DNA of 64,000 nucleotides from Escallonia rubra (lineage: Eukaryota; Streptophyta; Magnoliopsida; Escalloniales; Escalloniaceae), in NCBI GenBank assembly GCA_033065855.1, contig JAVXUO010001788.1, positions 1 to 64,000 on the forward strand, written 5' to 3'. Within the stretch, counting starts at the first letter, position 1; every line of letters begins with the position of its first letter. A program made the position numbers and the translations under genes. The notes below the pieces were generated by a model. That model was not told the DNA's origin. It searched no databases and worked only from the letters and a program-made list of their open reading frames with translations. Positions 636 through 63,739 of this stretch are shown here, piece after piece.

Positions 636-2299
636 GTTAATGCCTCGCTTGCATTCTTCCAGAAGTTGAGTGAGCGGAAGGATCTGATGAGCGCAATGGG
701 CGAGGATCTTCGCCAACAGACTGCTGCACTGGCTATAGGCTGCGGGAATTTTGTGTGGCAAGCATCGGGACAGTCTTCGGTCGACAGCCCGAGAATGGGT
801 TATACGGGCGCCAGCCCGTATAACGTTGATCCCTCCGGGCAAGCTTCAGGGGTGAGCCAGGGAGTTGGTGGTCCCTCTGTACCGGGGATGGGACATGCTC
901 AAGCGTCGTGGGCCGATTACAGCGGCCCGACCTTCGATTTGTTCCCGGAACCCCAACCCCTCTCTCAGAGTCAAGTCACGCAAGAATGGCCTTACGGTTT
1001 CAACGAGGCACTGCCCATTGTCCCGTGGGCGGGACCACTTGGCGGCCCCGAAGGGCAATATCAGCCGGAGGAAGAAATGGCCGGCGAGCAATATCAGCCG
1101 GCAGGGGCCTCCAAAGGCGATTATCAACCGACCGGGGCCCCCAAAGGCGACTATCAGCCGGCCGAGGCCCCCCAAGTTGATTATCAGCCGGCCGATCCGT
1201 TGGTTGGAGGCCAATTTCTTCCGTTGCTCTTGCCCCCCGGCGGAGGGCAAGAGCAACCGGTCGACCCCCGAGGGCAATATCCGAAAGGGCATCCAGCCAG
1301 GCCCCTGAAGCCGCATAAACACCACCTAATCCATCACCGTTATTTTAGCGGGCCCCCCCCAGACGAAGCGTCGTATGCCGTGAAAAACCCGCAGGGCTTG
1401 GATTACAGTGTCTCGTGGAAAGAACTGTCCACGATGGCGCCGGGGATGTGGTTAGACAACTTCGTCATCTCGCACTACGTGCAAATTCTGCGGCAAAGAA
1501 GTCGGGAGCAGCCTAACTACGGTCCGCGCATTTTTATCCTCGATGCTTACTTTCACAATATGCTAGTACAAGACTTTAACGAGTGGGACAAGGCGAGGAA
1601 GCAGGCGAGAAAGGGGAAGGCCGAGAACAAGTGGAGACCGTCCGCTAACCTACTCGCATATCTTGGTCGGCCGAGTCCAGAGCGCGCAAGTGTGGCGGAT
1701 GTGTTTCTACTCCCAGCTATAGTGAATGCCCATTGGTTCTTGATTTGCTATGAACCGGTAACGAATACCGTATCAGTCCTCGACAGTCTTAACGATGATA
1801 CGGACGCGATTGGTGTGATTGAAATGTACGTAGGCTTAGGGATGTTGAATCCAATGGTAAGAGCATGTTTACTTCTTATTGTAACTTGCATAATGTAGAA
1901 CTGATTAATCGTATTATGTTTGCTATGTTTAATGTTTAATGCTTATCCTGTTACTCGCAGAATCTATTTGCTGCCATGGTCAATAGAGAGCGTTCTAAAG
2001 AGACCCGAGGGAGGGCAGCGGGCGATAGGGAGGTTTTGCGTCCAAGTTTGCGTTACTCATCAAGCTATGTGAATACATTACGTGCAGAATGGTCTTATCG
2101 GATGAATGAACACGAGGTCCTAGTAGCTGATTCACGGAGCATGAATATACCCATACCTCGACAAAAGGCAATCAACATGCCTCGAATTACGTACATGGAG
2201 CTTGAAAGGGCACTTCATCGAATACGCGAGGAAAATAATAGAATGAGAGTTCGTCAAAGTCCGCTAAACATAGATAAGGCCGGAAAAAAAACTAAGTGA
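636..2299 (+). CDS. Ulp1-like (C48) protease-domain gene of the MULE, two exons
   Basis: The long exon (about 636-1856) is open. A GT donor at 1857 and an AG acceptor at 1959-1960 join it in phase 0 to a second exon (1961-2299, stop TGA), removing a 104-bp intron. The middle holds about five imperfect repeats of roughly ten residues built on DYQPA, at about 1060-1195. The C-terminal part has WLDNFVISHYV, then HWFLICYEP and SVLDSL. These correspond to the Ulp1/SENP peptidase pattern, with the catalytic His in HW and the Asp in DSL. The expected Gln and catalytic Cys block further on is not visible. Exon 2 instead encodes a basic, coiled-coil-like tail (YMELERALHRIREENNRMR). So it is either a degenerate protease or a protease-derived fold without activity. 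Its 5' part should be the mobile-domain remnant, but the obvious join there is out of phase. Confidence 0.55.
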
Positions 2300-4207: not shown

Positions 4208-6496
4208 TTAAAGGTCCACTGCAGCTTGTTCGTCCTCGTCTTCGGCGTCACCTTCTTCCCCGTCTTGCAAACCCCCTGAACTTATCCCCAGTGCCTTGTA
4301 ATGGTTCCGCTTGTCGTGGTCGGTCATTTTGTTGCACAATGCACACCTTCGCAGCTTTTTAGGTTGAGTTGCCGTTTCAATAGAGCTTTTCATCCGCGTA
4401 GATCTCTTGCGGCCTTTCGTTTGCGATATAATTGGGTCCAACAAACAAATATCATTGTCGTCTTCCTCCCCCGGCTCGTCATCTTCTGATACCCCCGTGG
4501 TGTCAATCGCATTGGTGACTGAAGCTGCTTCCAACTGGTCGACAATGGGCTCTTGCTGCTGAGCTACCTCGAGGAGATGTTTATAACCGACCATTGAAGC
4601 AGCAGCCTTTACGGACAAACGGGTGAAACTCGTCACCAGATGATTATACCGCAACGTCTCTGATTCTTCAAAGTCAGTATACGGGTGCTCCGGAAAAGCA
4701 ATGGTACCGTGCAACCTGTTAGCACCTTTCGTCCACCGTGGCAAGACGTATTTATCGGGGATTGTCCTGATATTCTTCTGGGTGAAAAAGCGCATAATGT
4801 GTCTACACAGGATGCCATGGAACTCAAACTTCTTGCAAACACATGTCACCGAGTTCGTCAATGTGTCGTGGCTCACCGTATACATTCTGCGCAGCTTCTC
4901 AGGAACGAGGTCATTCACGAGCGAATAAACCTTGTACTCACGCGTAGACTTCTCTGCCACCTTGTTTATACAGTACCGTCCCGATTTCTGCAGCTCTACT
5001 TGGTATAGCAAGAAGATCTCATTCGTATAGACTTTGGTACCGTTCAGCTCCAGCGGGGTCTCAAGCAACCTTCTCCTCTGTTTGTACTTGGTTGCAAAGT
5101 CTGCAGCCCTTTCTTTCACGAACAACGACGCAACCGCTTTCTGTGCGGATGTGACGAAACTCTTCAAATTGGTAGTTGTACCCACGTAACTATCGAAAGT
5201 GGCATTCATAGATTCACTCCTGCCCGTCGTTTTCATGCCCGCAGAAAAATGCCTCCTCGTGTAAACGCCAATCCATTGCTCTTTGAGCTCGTACAAGTGC
5301 TGGAGCCACCCGTTGTCTTGCAATGAGTAATCGTGAACAAGTTTTTCCCACCTCTCCTCAAATTCCTCAATCGTTAACGACTTGCTAACGCACGTGTCAA
5401 AATCCTATTTAAAGTCTGGAAACTTTGCGTACACGTGATGCAAACGTTCGGGGTATTTGTTGCTTATGTGCCAAGTGCACAAGTTGTGTCGAGTATCTGG
5501 GAAGACGGTGGCAATAGCCTTCTTCATTGCCAAATCTTGATCGGTGATGATAACGTTGGGTGCTTTGAAGTTCATGGCTTCCAGCCACGTCCTAAACAAC
5601 CATTCAAAAGAACTCTCGCTCTCATCCCGTAACAAGGCGAACCCGAACAGGATGGAGTGATAATGATGATTGACCCCCGTGAAAGGGGCAAACGGCATCG
5701 AGTACTTGTTGGTACGGTATGTGGTGTCGAAAGTCACGACATCCCCAAAATGCTTATAAGCAAGCCTGGAACGACCGTCGACCCAAAAAATTGTGCTAAC
5801 TCGATGCTCGTCGTCAAGTTTATAATCGAAGGTAAAATGCGGGTCCTTCATCTGCATCCGCTTCAATAGGCTCATTGTGGCTTGAGCATCATTGAGGTCA
5901 TACGCGGCTCGTCTATGGGTTCGGACCGCGTTGCGAACGTCTGTCGTGTTAAAGTTTAAATTTTGAATTCCCCCGGCATGTTCAGCAAGAACATTAATCA
6001 TGTCGGTAGGTCCTAGACGCGCATCGCTCATTGTGTGAATGAGGCTCCTCGCGACCTTTCCCATCTTCTTGTGTTGATGCATCTGACTCACCTTAGAAGG
6101 GGTTACTAACGGGTGATTGTGTGCCAGTTCCAGGCTGCTAATAAGCCAATGATCTTGCTTGGGTTTATAGCTTACGAACATCTTGACCTGGCAATTCGTT
6201 CGCGCAAAGAAGTCTCGTCTTCTGCGCGAATAGCCTATTTCGTCATCACTGTCCTCGTTGCCTACGCGTGTCTCATTTTGCACTGGGTTTCTGCCCCTAT
6301 GGCACTCGTACATACGAGAGCATATCTTTCTCGTTATGTTGCTCGTTCTTGAAGTCTTTATTCTAATGCCAAATCCAACCCTCAATGAATACGCTCGGAA
6401 ACATTCTCCAGCTTCCTCCAATGTTTGAAAGGTTCGTCCTAGATACGGATCACTAGCATCTACGGGGGTGTTGGAGCTCGACACGAAATCAGACAT
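4208..6496 (-). CDS. FAR1/MULE transposase, one in-frame TAG
   Basis: One continuous frame of about 762 codons runs from ATG 6496 to a stop at 4208, interrupted by a single TAG at 5405-5407. Near the N-terminus (about 21-68) is a FAR1-type zinc DNA-binding domain (FRAYSLRVGFGIRIKTSR, then C and CHRG). The MULE transposase core follows: FDTTYRTN with Asp about 257, IITDQDLAMKKAI with Asp about 319, CTWHISNKY, and GRSESMN with Glu about 428 as the likely third catalytic residue. A SWIM zinc finger (CVCKKFEFHGILCRH) lies at about 552-566, and a second zinc-knuckle-like CALCNKMTDHDKRNH near the C-terminus. Host FAR1-related proteins share this layout, but the flanking mobile-domain, Ulp1 and array content argues for a transposon. 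The lone stop implies very recent inactivation or tolerated read-through. Confidence 0.85.
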
Positions 6497-7127
6497 TGTG
6501 AAACAGCTCCCTATATGTAGAAATATAGACTACGCTGAACAATCAAATGACATTTTCAACTGAAAATATTACCTTAAAATTATCGTGACGAATAGACAAA
6601 TTTAAGATGACAAATATACCATATACATAATCTCAAAAGTCTCCCATTTTGCTAATTATAGATTTATTGAACATAACAAATTAAAATTACTAAGAGCGTT
6701 AGACAAATTCATCATGCCAAAATACAACAAACGTATCTCAAAAAATTCGAATTTAAATAGGATAGATGTGCCGAAGTTAGTGCCCCTCAAAAAAATCAAA
6801 ATTAACTACAATAAACTTCTTTAAAGTTAACAAATTAATTTCTAGAACATCATCAGAAATTTATATTTTTTTGCCCAAAATAAAAAATATACTTTATCAG
6901 TCAATCCACCCAGAAAATATCTGAGATGAGAAACTTACCTTGCTTGAGTGAGAAGAAGATTGAAGCAAGTTTTACTCGAAGAAGCTTGAGGGAAGCCGAA
7001 AATGGAAGCCAGGTGAATCCGAAGGAGAAGAAAATTTTGCGGGAAGAGCTTGAGAATTTTGCGGGATGAGCTGAGAATCAGGAAAAAGAGCTGAGAATCA
7101 GGAACCTCGGGGGTATACGGGAAGCAC
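6497..7127. promoter_or_regulatory. AT-rich upstream region of the MULE transposase gene
   Basis: About 630 bp of AT-rich non-coding DNA between the transposase start (6496, minus strand) and palindrome array 3. No long ORF or recognised repeat is visible, apart from a short direct repeat near 7070-7100 (GAGCTGAGAATCAGGAA). It is the natural place for the transposase promoter and 5' UTR. I could not assign a TATA box with confidence. Confidence 0.35.
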
Positions 7128-9500: not shown

Positions 9501-12500
9501 ATCTCCACCTTGGCTTGTATTAACAAACCACTCCATGAGGAAAGTGTAATATGCCTTCAGTACCTTCTTCAGGTACTCCACATTGCATCCCCTTTAAAGG
9601 TAGGGATACACTCCACCTTGAACTCAACAAGAAAGAAGATGAATCAAGCTCAAGCAATGCTTGAACTTCTCTGTCATGACTGTCTTCGTGAGCATATCAG
9701 TAGCGTTGTCATTAGTGTGAACCTTGTGCACGACAATTTGTTTAGAATTAATCCATTCTCGGACCCTATGATAACGTACATCAATATGCTTGGTCCTTGC
9801 ATGGAAAACCTGATTCTTTGCCAAATCCAATGCACTCTGACTGTCACACTGTAACAAAACACCACGCTGCTTGAAGCCAAGCTCCTCTACCAGTCCCTTT
9901 AACCATAATGCCTCCTTAGCTGCCTCTGTCAATGCCATGTACTCTGCCTCCGTAGTTGACAATGTTGTCGTAGACTGTAACACTGATTTCCAACATATCG
10001 GCCCTCCATAGAATATAAAAATATATCCAGTCGTGGACTTCTTGAAATCCAATTCCCCAACATAATCAGAATCCACAAAGCCAGAAACCTCACCTTTTGC
10101 CCCATCACGATCAAACATGACGCCAAAGTTGGTCGAACCTACTAGATAACGGAAGATCCACTTTACTGCATCCCAATGCTTCTTTCCTGGATTTCCCATA
10201 TACCTGCTGACCATACTAACTGCATGTGAGATATCAGGTCTAGTACACACCATGGCATACATAAGACAACCAACCGCATTTGCATACGGTACTCGAGACA
10301 TATACTCAACATCTTTTTCTGTACTAGGACAAAGTTGTGAGGATAACTGAAAATGAGCTCCAAATGGTGTACTAACTGGTTTAGCATTAAGCATACTAAA
10401 CCTCTCCAGTACCTTTTTAACATAACTTTTCTGAGTTACCCACAACTTTCCTGCCTTTCGATCTCTATGAATCTCCATACTAAGGATCTTTTTGGCAGAA
10501 CCAAGATCCTTCATATCAAACTTCCTGCTCAACAATTTCTTCAAGTGCAGAATATGAGACTTACTCTTCGCAGCAATCAACATGTCATCCACATATAATG
10601 TGAGCAACAACAGTGAACCATCATCAAGGACTCGATAATACACACAACAATCATACTCACATCGAGAGTAACCATGAGTTACCATGAATGTGTCGAATCG
10701 CTTGTACCACTGCTGAGGAGACTGCTTCAAACCATATAAGGACTTTTTTAGCTTGCACACATAGTCTTTCTTCCCAGGTTCAATAAATCCCTCGAGTTGC
10801 TGCATGTAGATCATATCCTCCAAATCACCATGAAGAAAAGCTGTCTTTACATCAAGTTACTCCAACTCCATATTATGTGCTGCTACAATGGACAATATTA
10901 ATCTGATAGAAGTATGCTTCACTACTGGCGAAAAGATCTCATTATAATCAATTCCCTCATTTTGAGAATATCCTTTTGCCACCAGTCTTGCCTTGTACTT
11001 CTGATCTTCCTTTTTCCTGTAAACCCACTTACATCCAATAGCCTTCACATCCTTTAGAAGTTTAACCAATTCCCAAGTTTGATTCTTCCGTAGAGATTCC
11101 ATCTCCTCATCCATTGCTGTCAACCATAAGTTACCATCCTCTGCCTTGACAGCCTCGTTGTAACTGGTAGGATCTCCACTTCCCACGATTAGTGCAAATG
11201 AGACCAACTCCTCAAAACCATACCTTTGAGTTGGTTTCTTAGTACGTGGCTCTCTATCTCTGACTAGATTCCAAGAATTACTAGGATGCTCATCTGGATC
11301 TTCTAAAGACGGCTCATCTGTAGATCCATCTGTAGACTCATCAGCTGATTTTGTCCTCTCTTCATGCAACTCTATCTCCACTGTGTGACCCTGCCTCTCG
11401 CTAGAAGTTGCATTTGTATTCAACATATGTGCTTCATTGAATACCACATCTCTACTAATCACCTTCTTCTTGGCCACTGGATCCCATAACCTGTATCATT
11501 TTAGTCCTTCCTCATACCCAAGGAATTTACATTCTTTTGACTTAGGATCAAGTTTGGATCGTTCTTCATTTTGAAGATGAACATACACAGGACAACCAAA
11601 AATTCTCATTGCAGAAAAATTAACTTGTTTACCAGACCATATATCTTTGGGAACTCGGTGATTAATGGCAGATGATGGAGAACGGTTGATCAAGTAACAA
11701 GCTGTGTTAACAGCTTCAGCCTAGAAACTCTTAGGCAAATCTGCATTCAACCTCATGCATTTAGCTCGCTCCAGCAAGGTTCTGTTCATCATTTCGGCAA
11801 CCCCATTCTGCTCTGGAGTCCTCTCCACTGAAAAGTGTCTGATGATACCCTTATCCTTGCAGAACTGCAGAAACTCCTCATCCTTGTATTCCATGCCATT
11901 ATCTGATCTGAAGTACTTAAACTTCTTACCCGTCTGATTTTCAAGTCTAGCCTTCCACTGCTTAAACACGTTGAAAACTTCAGACTTGTGCTTCATAAAG
12001 TACACCCATACCTTTCTTGAGAAATCATCTATAAACGTAACAAAGTAACGAGCTCCCCCATTTGAGATATGCTTGATTGGTCCCCAAACATCCGAATGTA
12101 TATAGTCCAGAACCCCTTTACTAGTATGAGAAGCTGCATTAAAACTAACTCATTTTTGCTTCCCAAAAACACAAAATTTGCATAAGTCCAGCTGGCATGA
12201 TTTCACTCCCTGCAGCAACTTGCGTTTGTGAAGTTCCAACATACATCCCTCGCTCAAGTGTCCCAGCCGTTTATGCCATAACTCAGAGTTATCATTGCTA
12301 GAACCTGCATGAGTTGATACTGAAGCTCCACCTATAATTGTGTTCCCTATCAGTTTATACAAATTTCCAATTTTCTGACCTTTCATTATTACCATCGCAC
12401 CTTTGCTGACTTTCATGACTCCACCTTTTATAAATATACTACAATCTATAGAATCAAGTGTGCCCAAGGAAATCAAATTCTTCTTCAAGTCAAGTATGTA

Positions 12501-13644
12501 CCTTACATCACCCAGGGTTCCCACAATCCTATCAAAATTTTTAATTTTAATGGTACCTATGTACCCATTAACACAGTACCACCGTCACATGGAGTAAGAC
12601 AATCAAACCATTCCTTATGTGGGCACATATGAAATGAACATGCAGAGTCAAGAAACCATTCCGTAGAAAAACTGTTGTCTCTAACTAATAAGAGATTACC
12701 TTCTTGCTGCTCAACCGAGGAAACCAAGTAGAGATCACCATCGCTGCTTTTGTCATCTTCTTCAGCAACATTAGCATTGTTCACATGTTTCTTTCCGTTC
12801 TTCTTCTCCTTCCTTTCTGGACACTTTCTTGCAATGTGACCAATCTCTTTACAATACCAGCATTCAGTACTGGACTTGTCCTGCTTTCCACGAGACTTAG
12901 ACCTGTCTTTTCCATGTCCTGGATTTCTGCTTCTAGATCGACCTCTGCCTCTTCTATGACCATTATTATTTTCAGACCTTACCACCAGACCTTCGCCTTG
13001 ACTGCTTGAACTCGTCCCATTAACTCTGCTCAAGTCCATAAGAGCCGACATAACATCATCAACAAGCAATGTCTCCTTCCCAATAAGCAACGTAGTCTTC
13101 AAGGTCTCATATGATTTTGGAAGCGAACATAACAACAAAATCGCCTGATCTTCCTCATCGAGTTTAACATCTATACTAGACAATTGGGACACCAACCGGT
13201 TAAATTTTGATATATGATCACCTAGATCTGAACCTTCATCCATCCGTAACTGGTACAGATCTTTCTTCAGATATAACCGATTCGACAAAGATTTTGACAT
13301 ATATATCTTCTCCAATTTCTGCCACAGAGCTGTTGGAGAAGTCTCTGTCAAAACCTGGTACTTAACCTTCGGGGCTAGATTCAACCGTATCGTAGATACA
13401 GCCTTAGCCTGTAATTTCTCTCAATCGTCCTGATCTATTGACTTAGGTTTATTCCCCAGGAAAGGCTTGAGTAATCCTTGCTGCACAAGGATATCATTCA
13501 CCGTGCTCTGCCATATGCCAAAATTCGTCTTCCCATCGAATTGTTCACAGGCATACTTCATGGTCGTGTTGTTCGACATATTTATCCTCTCAAATCAATT
13601 TTAATTTTGCCCAAAAAAAAAACCTAGAAGCTTTTGATACCACT

Positions 13645-25573: not shown

Positions 25574-25939
25574 CTAAATAGAAGAATGCAGACGATCATG
25601 CTGATGAACTGGTGCCTCTTTGTCCACGCACATCATCTGCATGTCGAAGTCGCCTAGGCGTAGTTCGTCAAACTTTCTAACTCCGTCCGCAGAGCAACTA
25701 CCCTTCAGATCATAGCAGGCCTTGTGACAATCTCTAGTAGGACCACCAAAGATATAATCGCTGCAGACAAGCGCCGCCCTGTCGGCGGCAGCCAAGCACT
25801 CCTCCCCGCCGGGAAATTCCATGAAAACTGGCACAAATTCCCAGGGAAGAGCTTGGAGGTCTGTTACGTGATCGTGCGCATGGGTTTGTGGTATGGCCAT
25901 GCAGGCAAGGATTAGTGTAATGACAATGGAAGCTCTCAT
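25574..25939 (-). CDS. Small secreted cysteine-rich protein, ECA1/prolamin-like
   Basis: An intronless 121-residue ORF from ATG 25939. The first about 21 residues form a signal peptide (MRASIVITLILACMAIPQ, then THA). The mature part has six cysteines in the order ECLAAADRAALVC, DCHKAC, GSC and MMC. This resembles the Prolamin-like (DUF1278, PF05617) family of ECA1 gametogenesis-related and egg-cell-secreted proteins, which are small, secreted and usually expressed in gametophytes or flowers. The family's usual CC pair is replaced here by C-x-x-C, so the assignment rests partly on the neighbour at 26907-27320, a clearer member with a similar signal peptide. A TATA-like CTACATAAACC lies upstream at about 26003. 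Function beyond a secreted protein is not known. A relic copy lies at 22560-22990. Confidence 0.65.
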   Translation of the reverse strand: MRASIVITLILACMAIPQTHAHDHVTDLQALPWEFVPVFMEFPGGEECLAAADRAALVCSDYIFGGPTRDCHKACYDLKGSCSADGVRKFDELRLGDFDMQMMCVDKEAPVHQHDRLHSSI

Positions 25940-26060
25940 TGTTTTCTTCTCGTTTCTCTCTTTTCTTTCTCTGCCTTTGGGTGAAGAGACATGAAGGTTT
26001 GGGCTGGTTTATGTAGAGCGTGGAGTATGGAGTGGTTAACAGTTCAAGTTTGATTAGGAG

Positions 26061-26906: not shown

Positions 26907-27320
26907 TCATGCTGGTTGTGGACTTGCCGCCGGTGCAGCGACCACGTGCTCGCAATCTTTTCTCGCTTTGAGCACGTAACGGAACAAGCAAACCTTTTCG
27001 AACCCCTCCACCTCTTCGGCCGAGCAGTTGTCGTCGAAAGCCTGAATAGCCTCACAGCAGTGATCTGCCAAAGAGAGATGGATCCTGGGGAACTTGCCGG
27101 TCTTCTTGATGCAGGACAACACCGTGTTGTGAGCCGCAGCCACGCACTTCTCCTCGCTGGGTGGTGGTAGGTGTACGGGCGGCGGTAGATGTGGCCGGAC
27201 ATGTGGCAGGGCTCTGTACCATGGCCACGGCCACGGTTCTCCGCGTGCATGGCTTGTTGGTGCCATGGATATGGCCATGCATGCAAGAAGCACGAGGATT
27301 GCTGCGGAAACTCCCTTCAT
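26907..27320 (-). CDS. ECA1 gametogenesis-related/prolamin-like secreted protein
   Basis: An intronless 137-residue ORF from ATG 27320. A signal peptide (MKGVSAAILVLLACMAISMA, then PTSHA) is followed by a Trp/Pro/His-rich spacer (PWPWPWYRALPHVRPHLPPP). The cysteine domain carries EEKC, VLSC, DHCCEAI, DNC, KVC and KDC. The CC pair and spacing fit the Prolamin-like PF05617 family (ECA1-like, related to egg-cell EC1 proteins). In Arabidopsis several members are secreted and act in gamete or embryo-sac signalling; a role here is inference. A good TATA box (CTATAAATACC on the minus strand) lies at about 27391-27401, roughly 75 bp upstream. It is tandem with, and likely a paralogue of, the gene at 25574-25939. 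The ORF looks intact. Confidence 0.8.
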   Translation of the reverse strand: MKGVSAAILVLLACMAISMAPTSHARGEPWPWPWYRALPHVRPHLPPPVHLPPPSEEKCVAAAHNTVLSCIKKTGKFPRIHLSLADHCCEAIQAFDDNCSAEEVEGFEKVCLFRYVLKARKDCEHVVAAPAASPQPA

Positions 27321-27390
27321 AGCTCCTTTCTCTCTTTATCTCTCTCTCGCTCAGAGGACTGTGGTGAAGGATGTGAAGGTTTTGGTTGGT

Positions 27391-60527: not shown

Positions 60528-61063
60528 ATGAAGCCTTCTTCATTGGTCTTTGTTTTACTCTTGTCCAGTCTCCTCTTTGAGGCTCAAGGTATGCCCAGTT
60601 CAGTTATACATATCTATATTTCTTGACAAGTTAAGATCGTGTTCTTTAATTTGTTGTATGCCTATACCGTATTGCTAAACATTTTCTTTGTTCTTGGTTA
60701 AGGTATACGCTTGGGGAAGTTCTCTACACCAGCTGGGGATAACAAAATACAGGTGGGTGTCCATTTTTTTTCATATGCTCTGTACTCTGGTTCCAAAGGA
60801 AATTAAAATATCTTGAGAAATTGTTGAAGTGTGATACCTCTACGTCTGGGTATTGATCTTCTCTTGTTTTAATGCAGCAGGAGGAGGATGATTTGGTGAG
60901 AAGAAACAATGGTGGTGTTGGAGAGGTTATTCTATGCAAAGATGGACATTGTTCAGGTACCAAGAGAAGATTTTCTAGAGTAACCAAGGACTCTCACCAT
61001 TGGTTACCAAAGGTTCATGAAGATTATTATGGACCCAGGATTCACAACCCTAGGCACCACTAA
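60528..61063 (+). CDS. Alternative short isoform of the RGF gene with a different C-terminal peptide
   Basis: If the donor at 60957 is not used, exon 3 continues to TAA 61063. Exons 60528-60588, 60703-60752 and 60878-61063 then give 98 residues with the same signal peptide. The new tail is GTKRRFSRVTKDSHHWLPKV, then HE, then DYYGPRIHNPRHH. This last 13-mer resembles RGF peptides such as DYSNPGHHPPRHN: Asp-Tyr start, Pro at 5, His at 8, Pro-Arg-His near the end. An acidic residue precedes the Tyr, and a basic stretch precedes it as a possible processing region. Chance read-through of an intron would not be expected to give such a motif directly before a stop. Retained-intron noise cannot be excluded from sequence alone. 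Confidence 0.55.
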
Positions 61064-61832
61064 TCTTCTTCCTCATAGGATTCTTCCATTTAGTTTTCCC
61101 TTTTTCCTTTCGAAAGGATTAGTCTCTTGAAGCTTGACTAGAGCTAGCTGGGTTTCAAAAAGACTTAAACCCATGACCATGTACTTTGAAAATCATCTTT
61201 GTAGTTTCTCTAACTCTTTAACTTGATCCAGTTATATATTAAGCATGTTGCATGAGACTTAATTGCTGCCTTCGATCGTTTTTCTGTAAATCAACGCAAA
61301 AGCTTCATGGAGGCATCACTAAAGAAGTTGCATACTCCCCCATCCTTTCAAATAGGCTCTACTTCAGAAGTCTACAGTATGATACACAGTTTTTACCTTA
61401 AAATCTTGCCACATAAATGGTTTCTGATGTATTTTGCAGGAATGATGAATAGAAAACTTGTTAGCACACCCACCTCTACATCTACTTCCACCACCAATTC
61501 AAAGGTTGGTTTCTCAATAATGAAAAAGTTTCTAACAAGCACTAGAATCAGAGAGCAATCCCCTCCCCCTCCCCCTCCCGTTTTGCTTGTCACCTTACAT
61601 GATTCTATGCTTCATGTAACAGAGTCACAAGAACGAAGGAAATAAAGCTGACCCCATTTCAAAGGGCAAATCAAGTAGTGAAGGACTAGGTCGGAAAGAA
61701 GAGAGTTTCTCCGTTAATTCATCACCGGTTTCCCATCACCGTGAGGCCGCCTCCGAGGGCTACCCGGACAATTTAGACATAGCTGGGATGGACTATTCTC
61801 CAGCAAAGAGAAAACCTCCAATACACAACTGA
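60528..61832 (+). CDS. Root meristem growth factor/GOLVEN/CLEL peptide precursor (long isoform)
   Basis: Five exons: 60528-60588, 60703-60752, 60878-60956, 61440-61504 and 61623-61832. All have GT-AG borders and phases fit, giving 154 residues. A signal peptide (MKPSSLVFVLLLSSLLFEAQ) leads into GIRLGKFSTPAG, EVILCKDGHCSG, MMNRKLVSTPTSTST and a hydrophilic variable region. The C-terminal 13 residues DYSPAKRKPPIHN match the RGF/GLV/CLEL mature-peptide consensus: Asp-Tyr for tyrosylprotein sulfotransferase, Pro-Pro near the end, terminal His-Asn. RGF peptides are secreted, Tyr-sulfated and Pro-hydroxylated, and are sensed by RGI/RGFR receptor kinases to maintain root meristem or control gravitropism and lateral roots. 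Exon 3 can also be read through to a different end (separate entry). The gene assignment rests on exon phases and the C-terminal motif; transcripts were not available. Confidence 0.85.
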
Positions 61833-63739
61833 GAATCAGTCTTGAAGAGATAGTTTTAGATCACAGGGAATACAAGTTGGACAGCATTGCATAAATGCTG
61901 CAGTTTTCTTAGGGTTTAGGAAGATTTTGTACATAGAATATATGTACTATGTGCTTGTTTTTAGGATACTTGTTTAATGATTAAGTCATAAGCACTTGGG
62001 TTGGGGAGCTTAGCAGCCTATGTAACCCAAAAGAATTATTACATGGAAAGTTCTATAGTACTACCACTTTTTGTTATGCTTCTTTTTGAACTTACGAGTA
62101 GCTAGCTTAATGTATTGAGAAAGAACGGCGTGTACTTTTTCGCGGTTTATTACTTCAATTTTTGTCATTCTCATAGTCCATCATACGCCACTTTTGCCTC
62201 GGGTACACAACAGCGGGGGGACACTTTTCCCCATTTCCTAAACCCCCAACTCCGATTGTATGCCGTCACGTGTCTCTTGCTACGACACGAGAAAACTTTA
62301 TCAGCTAAAATTGGCCGACGCTCGCTAGTTATAAGGTGAACAAAATTCATTGACAGACAAAAAAAAAAATTAACAAAAGAAAAGTCTATTAAGGTGAGAA
62401 CCACAGATCTTTTGAGTAATTGCAAGTAGAAGTGGCCTTGCCATAAATGAAGTAGGTGCTCTGCATTATGTGAACACCACCAACCCCTTGGGTGTGTCTA
62501 TCTTCAAATGGGGCAAATGGCCCGCAAGGGGGTTTTGGACCAGGCCCACCATGTTTCACTTATTGATTGCATTTCATTATATGAGTGGTCACACCGACAT
62601 ATGGGCTCAGATGCCCTTTGTTGGGTCAAGTTTGTGACCCAAACAAGTGAGGGCGTGGTGCACCGCAAAATGGGGAGATGCATTTATGGCATCTGTGTCC
62701 TAAGTTTTGCACATAAAAGACCTACATGTGTTTGGAAAAAATGTGCACTCGTTGTCAATGGGCTATACGTGACCAGTGTCAATTGGTGTTGATTGATACG
62801 AAATATCATGCTTGATGAGACAGTTTTTTTTATCGTTTATACATGAGATGATAATGCGGAGCGATTCTATGTTCAGGATTTGATATATGTGATAAGATCG
62901 ATTGGACTTCAAAAGCATGTTCATTTGATTATGTCTACTCCATTCGCCCTCAGGTGGAACGAAGAACTGGGTGCATGATAAGAACTTTGAGATACTCGAC
63001 CTAGTACTGAAGTTAGACCTGGGCTACACAATCTGTCACCCTAGAGTGGGAAACGTGCTATAATTGCACTCTCACGAGTTTGGAATGAAATCCGGTCCAA
63101 TTGGTGAACTGAGCTGCAAATTCATTGTTGGCGAATGACAAGGTGCATCGTGTCCATTATCCAACGTAAGTGATGTGCAAGACCACCTCTACCTAGCGAG
63201 CGAAGCAACCATTTGTTTGAGAAAAAAGCACTGGTCGTTTAAAGAAAACAGAAGCTGAATTCAATATGATATCTCCATGTGGTATCAAAGCGACCTCTCT
63301 ATTAAGACAATTAATTTACTTCTTCACCTCAAGCCCCATTTCTTTCTTATTTGATTTGAAGCTTGCAAATAAAAATTATAGACAAATATTATGTTGGTTA
63401 AAGTAATTATGGATATTCATCACCATTGTGAAACTACTTTTTATGAATTTGCGCTCTGGCGGTCAGGCATTCGTGAATTTTTAAAACTAATGGTCTCGTC
63501 CACTCCCATTTGCATTCACATTACAAGCTTCTTACCTAGGGTGAGACTATGGCATGAGGCACCAGACAACTAACATCCTCCCCCAGCCTCAACCCAATCT
63601 TAAATTTTCTACTCCATTTGTCCATAAACATTCATTTTACTACTTTAGCAACAATCTTATTTTATTTTATTCTAGCCTTGACATCATATTTCTTGTCTCT
63701 ATCTGTATTTGAAAGTCATCTATCGTCATACAATCCTAA
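61833..63739. other. Region downstream of the RGF gene without recognised genes
   Basis: The first 150-250 bp are probably the RGF 3' UTR. The remainder has only short ORFs, the longest at 62508-62792 (94 codons) without a recognised domain. Confidence 0.4.

Follow-up and report, generated by a model that had tools for sequence, protein, structure and literature searches.

Does one gene in Escallonia rubra encode two different peptide hormones of the RGF/GLV/CLEL family, one at each of two alternative 3' ends? The window that raises this question is the whole 64,000-nucleotide stretch of DNA that was analysed (positions 1 to 64,000 of contig JAVXUO010001788.1). The original prediction for this locus named a splice donor, an acceptor, a set of shared exons and two endings. 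Inspection of the sequence and its translations showed all of these landmarks to be present, at correct coordinates. Translation of the frames places the RGF/GLV/CLEL gene at positions 60528-61832 of the window, on the + strand, with the following parts.

60528-60588, + strand: coding part of exon 1, common to both isoforms, with the start codon and an N-terminal hydrophobic leader, MKPSSLVFVLLLSSLLFEAQ
60703-60752, + strand: exon 2, common to both isoforms, with an AAG^ acceptor and a CAG^GTGGGT donor; the frame is kept
60878-60956, + strand: exon 3 up to its donor, common to both isoforms, ending ...VILCKDGHCSG; the frame is kept
60957-60958, + strand: splice donor GT inside the open frame, CAG^GTACCA, phase 1 (after one codon base)
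60957-61063, + strand: read-through extension of exon 3 including the stop codon, an alternative C-terminus; the frame is open to TAA
61022-61060, + strand: proximal peptide DYYGPRIHNPRHH, Group H-like, directly before the stop
61438-61439, + strand: acceptor AG of the distal isoform, TGATGTATTTTGCAG^GAA, which restores the frame
61440-61504, + strand: exon 4, distal isoform only, joined in frame to exon 3
61505-61622, + strand: intron 4, GT...AG, 118 bases, whose removal restores the frame
61623-61832, + strand: exon 5, distal isoform only, including the stop codon, with a match to Pfam PF21529
61791-61829, + strand: distal peptide DYSPAKRKPPIHN, Group R, the top-scoring 13-mer in the window

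Both frames, both motifs and the splice signals are thus directly visible in the DNA, and both isoforms run in frame through the same three exons. Use of the donor at 60957, with exons 4 and 5 joined, gives a 154-amino-acid precursor ending in DYSPAKRKPPIHN; as had been proposed, this phase 1 donor fits the acceptor at 61438-61439 and the frame is restored. Left unspliced, the same donor is read as 34 extra codons with the tail TKRRFSRVTKDSHHWLPKVHEDYYGPRIHNPRHH, which close at a TAA stop codon (61061-61063) and yield a 98-amino-acid precursor ending in DYYGPRIHNPRHH. The claim that reading through the donor leads to an RGF-like motif at the extreme C-terminus is therefore borne out. The frame that starts at 61440 closes at 61645, and hence the distal peptide needs the intron at 61505-61622 to be removed; no ATG in 61064-61622 reaches the distal peptide when intron 4 is retained. 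The leader in exon 1 has a hydropathy of 2.95 over its best 11-residue stretch. Exons 4 and 5 have no hydrophobic leader of their own, and so depend on exon 1.

Published sequences and systems are compared below as given in the accessible text of each source. Residues 123-154 of the long isoform match Pfam PF21529 (GLV1-2; E 4.2e-9, 37.6 bits against a cut-off of 28.1). For the short isoform, neither Pfam (E up to 10) nor NCBIfam (E up to 1) gave a match, PF21529 being a model of the GLV1/2 type only, and a PDB search with the peptide returned no match. Both peptides are C-terminal 13-mers with Asp1-Tyr2 and the conserved proline in the second half that define the RGF/GLV/CLEL family. The distal peptide has K6, R7 and K8, the central Arg/Lys residues that characterise Group R. 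The read-through peptide has H8 and a stop right after residue 13, as in the description of Group H given for lycophytes (PMC8329595); it carries Asn9-Pro10 and His13 and lacks the Pro9-Pro10 and terminal Asn of the Arabidopsis His8 members, hence we name it Group H-like. A published grass RGF domain, DYYGASVHEPRHH, likewise has Glu9-Pro10 and His13.

To score both endings on one scale, we built a matrix from the 10 Arabidopsis RGF 13-mers in a published table (PMC11534595). Among the 3105 C-terminal 13-mers in the six frames of the window, the distal 13-mer ranked first (31.5) and the read-through 13-mer second (16.7), with the third at 6.8. The same two also ranked first and second among all 64,594 13-mers in the window, where the third scored 12.5. 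In simulated DNA, none of 1,048,257 C-termini reached 16.7, the best being 15.7. The read-through 13-mer scores slightly lower than any of the 10 Arabidopsis members (leave-one-out range 17.9-36.0) and higher than the grass domain, which scores 14.6 on the same matrix. We came upon the grass domain after the matrix result, during reading with another aim; it is common to four monocot proteins, AC200065.5_FG009, AC202076.3_FG009, Seita.1G353400 and Sobic.004G333000 (PMC8708909). It and the read-through 13-mer agree at 9 of 13 positions (D, Y, Y, G, H8, P10, R, H and H), and none of 9,741,196 simulated 13-mers was as close to it (best, 8 identities). The two proteins with AC identifiers are presumably from maize. 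Given the distal matches to Pfam and to a tomato peptide (below) and the read-through match to the grass domain, we assign both peptides to the RGF/GLV/CLEL family, as Group R and Group H-like, respectively.

Plant introns are as a rule high in T. T makes up 23% of the read-through stretch and 36% of what remains of intron 3; introns 1, 2 and 4 have 45, 41 and 31%, respectively, and exons 2-5 have 22%. On these small samples the stretch is distinct from the remainder of intron 3 (Fisher p 0.015) and from the pooled introns (p 0.005), but not from exons 2-5 (p 0.69); its composition is exon-like rather than intron-like.

We considered four other explanations for the read-through ending. One is that intron 3 simply happens to be open into an RGF-like string; the window had been scanned for oddities, hence some selection was involved, but the simulations described above, in which no null C-terminus reached the score and no null 13-mer was as near to the grass domain, reject chance read-through, which is strongly disfavoured and, in our judgement, vanishingly improbable. 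It is very unlikely that the proximal peptide belongs instead to a different family of sulfated peptides, for example PSY, in which case the gene would switch between hormone families. Its IHNP does resemble the HDP/HNP end of PSY motifs, and a PSY matrix with a gap allowed gives a score of 11.7 that 0 of 104,719 null C-termini reach. However, the ungapped PSY score is 0.2, against 16.7 for RGF, and the likeness to the grass RGF domain, together with a length and position that fit RGF exactly, favours the latter family. Nor does the proximal peptide carry the combination of Asn8, His11, Asp/Asn12 and Pro13 found in nine PSY rows of the published table. RGF fits better whether or not a gap is allowed, and we rejected PSY membership.

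Alternatively, a short Group H gene could stop at 61063 and a second, Group R gene could be transcribed downstream of it from a separate promoter in intron 3. Each peptide has its own stop, and exon 4 is open upstream to 61256. Five in-frame ATGs (61307 to 61445) would reach the distal peptide with intron 4 spliced, but no hydrophobic leader follows any of them (highest hydropathy 1.03; exon 1 has 2.95), and the donor of exon 3 fits exon 4 in phase. We rejected a separate downstream gene on this list of starts, and consider it highly improbable. Finally, the gene may formerly have ended at 61063 with a Group H peptide and then gained downstream Group R exons, the old end now always being spliced out, so that the read-through frame would be a recent fossil or would occur in degraded, intron-retained RNA. 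In favour of such a relic, the donor looks ordinary. Moreover, if the transcript were polyadenylated at a distal site and intron 4 removed, about 440 bases would separate the read-through stop from a downstream splice junction, and a stop codon so placed is a typical trigger of decay. However, a fossil intron would be expected to lose its motif, and here the 34-codon tail is intact, its composition is exon-like and its motif is still near the grass domain; we regard a relic as unlikely, though less so than the other three.

How might a single gene with two live ends work? With splicing at 60957, exons 4 and 5 would be included and the precursor would end in the Group R peptide. When this donor is skipped, with intron 3 retained or polyadenylated within, the shared leader and pro-region would instead be followed by the 34-residue tail and its Group H-like peptide. 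If skipping went with a poly(A) site in intron 3, the short mRNA would be stable; if it went with a distal poly(A) site and splicing of intron 4, the stop would come to lie far ahead of a splice junction. Both precursors would pass into the secretory pathway, to be sulfated on the tyrosine of Asp-Tyr and trimmed to the mature peptide, so that one promoter would deliver either peptide according to the 3' end chosen. We infer transcription of both ends, regulation of the choice between them, and processing and activity of both peptides; the original prediction adds that the two may act on different receptors. In Arabidopsis, CLEL6 and CLEL9 depend for maturation on cleavage by subtilases and on an Asp ahead of the sulfated Tyr (PMC7162652); both predicted peptides retain this Asp-Tyr, which is needed for sulfation. 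We examined the signals at which such a choice might be made. Donor 60957 matches 6 of 9 consensus bases, compared with 6, 7 and 6 for the gene's other three donors. It thus resembles them and is not visibly weaker, so an argument for regulated splicing from a weak donor failed, and the sequence alone gives no hint of regulated skipping. AATAAA is absent from 61064-61439, downstream of the proximal end, and also from 61833-62208, downstream of the distal end; poly(A)-like hexamers in general did not separate the two ends, and we discarded them as a marker.

Genes of this layout have been predicted in conifers. In spruce, alternative splice sites are predicted to select different CLEL peptides for CLEL14/CLEL22 and CLEL15/CLEL25 (Strabala et al. 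2014, PMC4016512). For CLEL14 the prediction places an AG^GTA donor within the terminal coding exon and takes a peptide from a different exon (PMC4016512). As in the Escallonia gene, the read-through and spliced forms of CLEL14/CLEL22, CLEL18/CLEL23-24, CLEL15/CLEL25 and CLEL20/CLEL26 encode different CLEL peptides behind shared 5' exons (PMC4016512), and the window gene has the corresponding features, CAG^GTA at 60957 and in-frame distal exons 4-5 with a second CLEL peptide. The likeness is one of described layout. The spruce genes are from conifers and have alternative exons separated by about 1 kb (PMC4016512); in the window gene, the distance from one peptide to the other is about 730 bases. 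According to the same authors, the Arabidopsis CLEL splicing that has been observed leaves the peptide unchanged, and regulation in at least part of the conifer CLEL genes is quite unlike that of the corresponding angiosperm genes (PMC4016512). Transcriptomes of gymnosperms contain pairs of Group H and Group R precursors with similar N-termini (Furumizu and Sawa 2021, PMC8329595), again resembling the two products of the window gene. In the accessible text of that study, such pairs are recognised in several gymnosperm lineages only, and their frequency within and outside gymnosperms is posed as a question (PMC8329595).

Both ends of the window gene have published counterparts in flowering plants. 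Tomato SlRGF2 (Solyc07g007270) is printed as YSPAKRKPPIHN, with the leading D missing, and is otherwise identical to the distal peptide DYSPAKRKPPIHN; soybean Glyma.17G106100 and Glyma.13G165000 are said to share its domain (PMC8708909). Synthetic SlRGF2 peptide causes root waving, with a root effect weaker than that of SlRGF1 (PMC8708909). No alternative end is reported for SlRGF2 or the soybean pair in the accessible text of that paper, whose survey gives one RGF domain per protein for 203 RGF proteins (Fang et al. 2021, PMC8708909); the grass proteins with DYYGASVHEPRHH are likewise listed with one domain each, in contrast to the two ends of the window gene. Arabidopsis CLE18 is also one gene with two peptide motifs, but there a CLE and an RGF motif lie in one precursor, without alternative ends (PMC11534595, PMC8708909).

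We then looked for relatives in the same genome. A PF21529 search of the 566-Mb assembly gave 16 matches, four of them over the cut-off, including the window gene. We read the matches at the window gene and at four GLV peptide loci; one further match is an exon of the second gene at C1525, and ten weaker matches, with E values of 0.28 or higher, were set aside. The four loci are these.

C1525, positions 2522-2870 and 5236-5598 of the extracted piece: tandem two-exon GLV genes about 2.7 kb apart, with peptides DYTPARRKPPIHN and DYTPPRITPPIHN and ends DYTPARRKPPIHN and DYTPPRITPPIHNG; in the second gene the peptide is altered, with one residue added
C1552: GLV peptide locus with peptide DYAQPHRKPPIHN, followed by RKP
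C1158: GLV peptide locus with peptide DYSHVKRRRPIHN, under the PF21529 cut-off

The peptide DYAQPHRKPPIHN has been reported in six eudicot proteins (PMC8708909); with the tomato and soybean matches of the distal peptide and the size of the genome, this makes a eudicot host likely. No Group H-like partner was found in the 8-9 kb examined at each of the four loci. By eye, the exon before the long intron at C1158 also seems to end in SG ahead of its donor, and no RGF motif was seen on reading through it. A partial copy of the window gene lies at C869:33838-34195 and is 95% identical to 60662-61018. It begins in intron 1 and stops a few bases short of the read-through peptide, lacking exon 1 and both peptides, and it differs at 1 of 41 positions in intron 1, 3 of 50 in exon 2, 6 of 125 in intron 2, 4 of 79 in exon 3 and 4 of 62 in the tail. 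The copy is probably a dead fragment. Because it has no exon 1, ends before the peptide and has differences spread over all parts, it cannot serve as a test of conservation. We also scanned contig collections for relatives of exon 3 plus the tail. In viral contigs, 13 stretches matched the pattern and none was a relative; in bacterial and archaeal contigs there were 90 pattern matches, of which one, bacterial, passed, with 63% identity over residues 14-32 (19 residues) in the part from exon 3 and the early tail, the peptide not being covered; we set it aside. These collections being viral and bacterial/archaeal, the scans give no evidence on conservation.

Taken together, the shared in-frame exons, the Pfam match, a 13-mer not attributable to chance, its likeness to the grass domain, the exon-like T content, the leaderless exons 4-5 and the precedents in spruce and other gymnosperms lead us to favour, with fairly good confidence, a single hormone-precursor gene of the RGF/GLV/CLEL family whose two 3' ends exclude each other. 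Against it stand the missing Pro9 and final Asn, a score below all ten Arabidopsis members and a short isoform without a Pfam match, as well as an ordinary donor, the lack of AATAAA, four other GLV loci without a pair and a survey with one domain in each of its proteins. The original prediction of one gene whose alternative ends encode different RGF-family peptides is thus upheld by the sequence, the statistics, the distal Pfam match, the grass match and the spruce layout, and it was probably right in kind; it mentioned neither the intron at 61505-61622 nor the 2014 conifer precedent.

By analogy of layout, the window gene is another member of a two-ended kind already described in conifers. 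As judged from its sequence, it is a good candidate for an H/R pair outside gymnosperms and, among the literature matches listed and in their accessible text, the first known. Those matches, from the main texts of open-licence papers, include no angiosperm RGF/GLV/CLEL gene whose alternative ends give different peptides. The exact read-through peptide was not found in print, and fragments of it, including DYYGPR and HNPRHH, gave no match among the open-licence papers searched. Such a layout in a eudicot would answer the question of Furumizu and Sawa on H/R pairs outside gymnosperms, and would suggest that the second end of such a gene can escape surveys that take a single domain for each annotated protein. 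More speculatively, the H/R switch could be an old device of seed plants, in which an ancestral RGF gene chose a Group H or Group R peptide by read-through or splicing at a terminal-exon donor before gymnosperms and flowering plants split; we think this rather doubtful. If it were true, the grass genes of the DYYG...HxPRHH type and the tomato and soybean genes encoding DYSPAKRKPPIHN would be the two ends of one locus, annotated one at a time.

Elsewhere in the window, 25574-26008 and 26907-27335 (both - strand) encode two small, secreted-looking, cysteine-containing proteins of similar layout, which matched no Pfam family and which we take to resemble egg-cell proteins of the ECA1 type. The region 9624-13420 (- strand) holds the remains of a copia-type retrotransposon, with an RVT_2 reverse transcriptase domain in 9627-10853 and adjoining frames that, by eye, look like integrase and gag. 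At 4208-6529 (- strand) lies a transposase of the FAR1/MULE type, its frame split by a stop into two neighbouring open stretches. An open stretch at 636-1898 (+ strand) contains an Ulp1-type protease domain (Peptidase_C48); domains of this kind are often borne by plant transposons.
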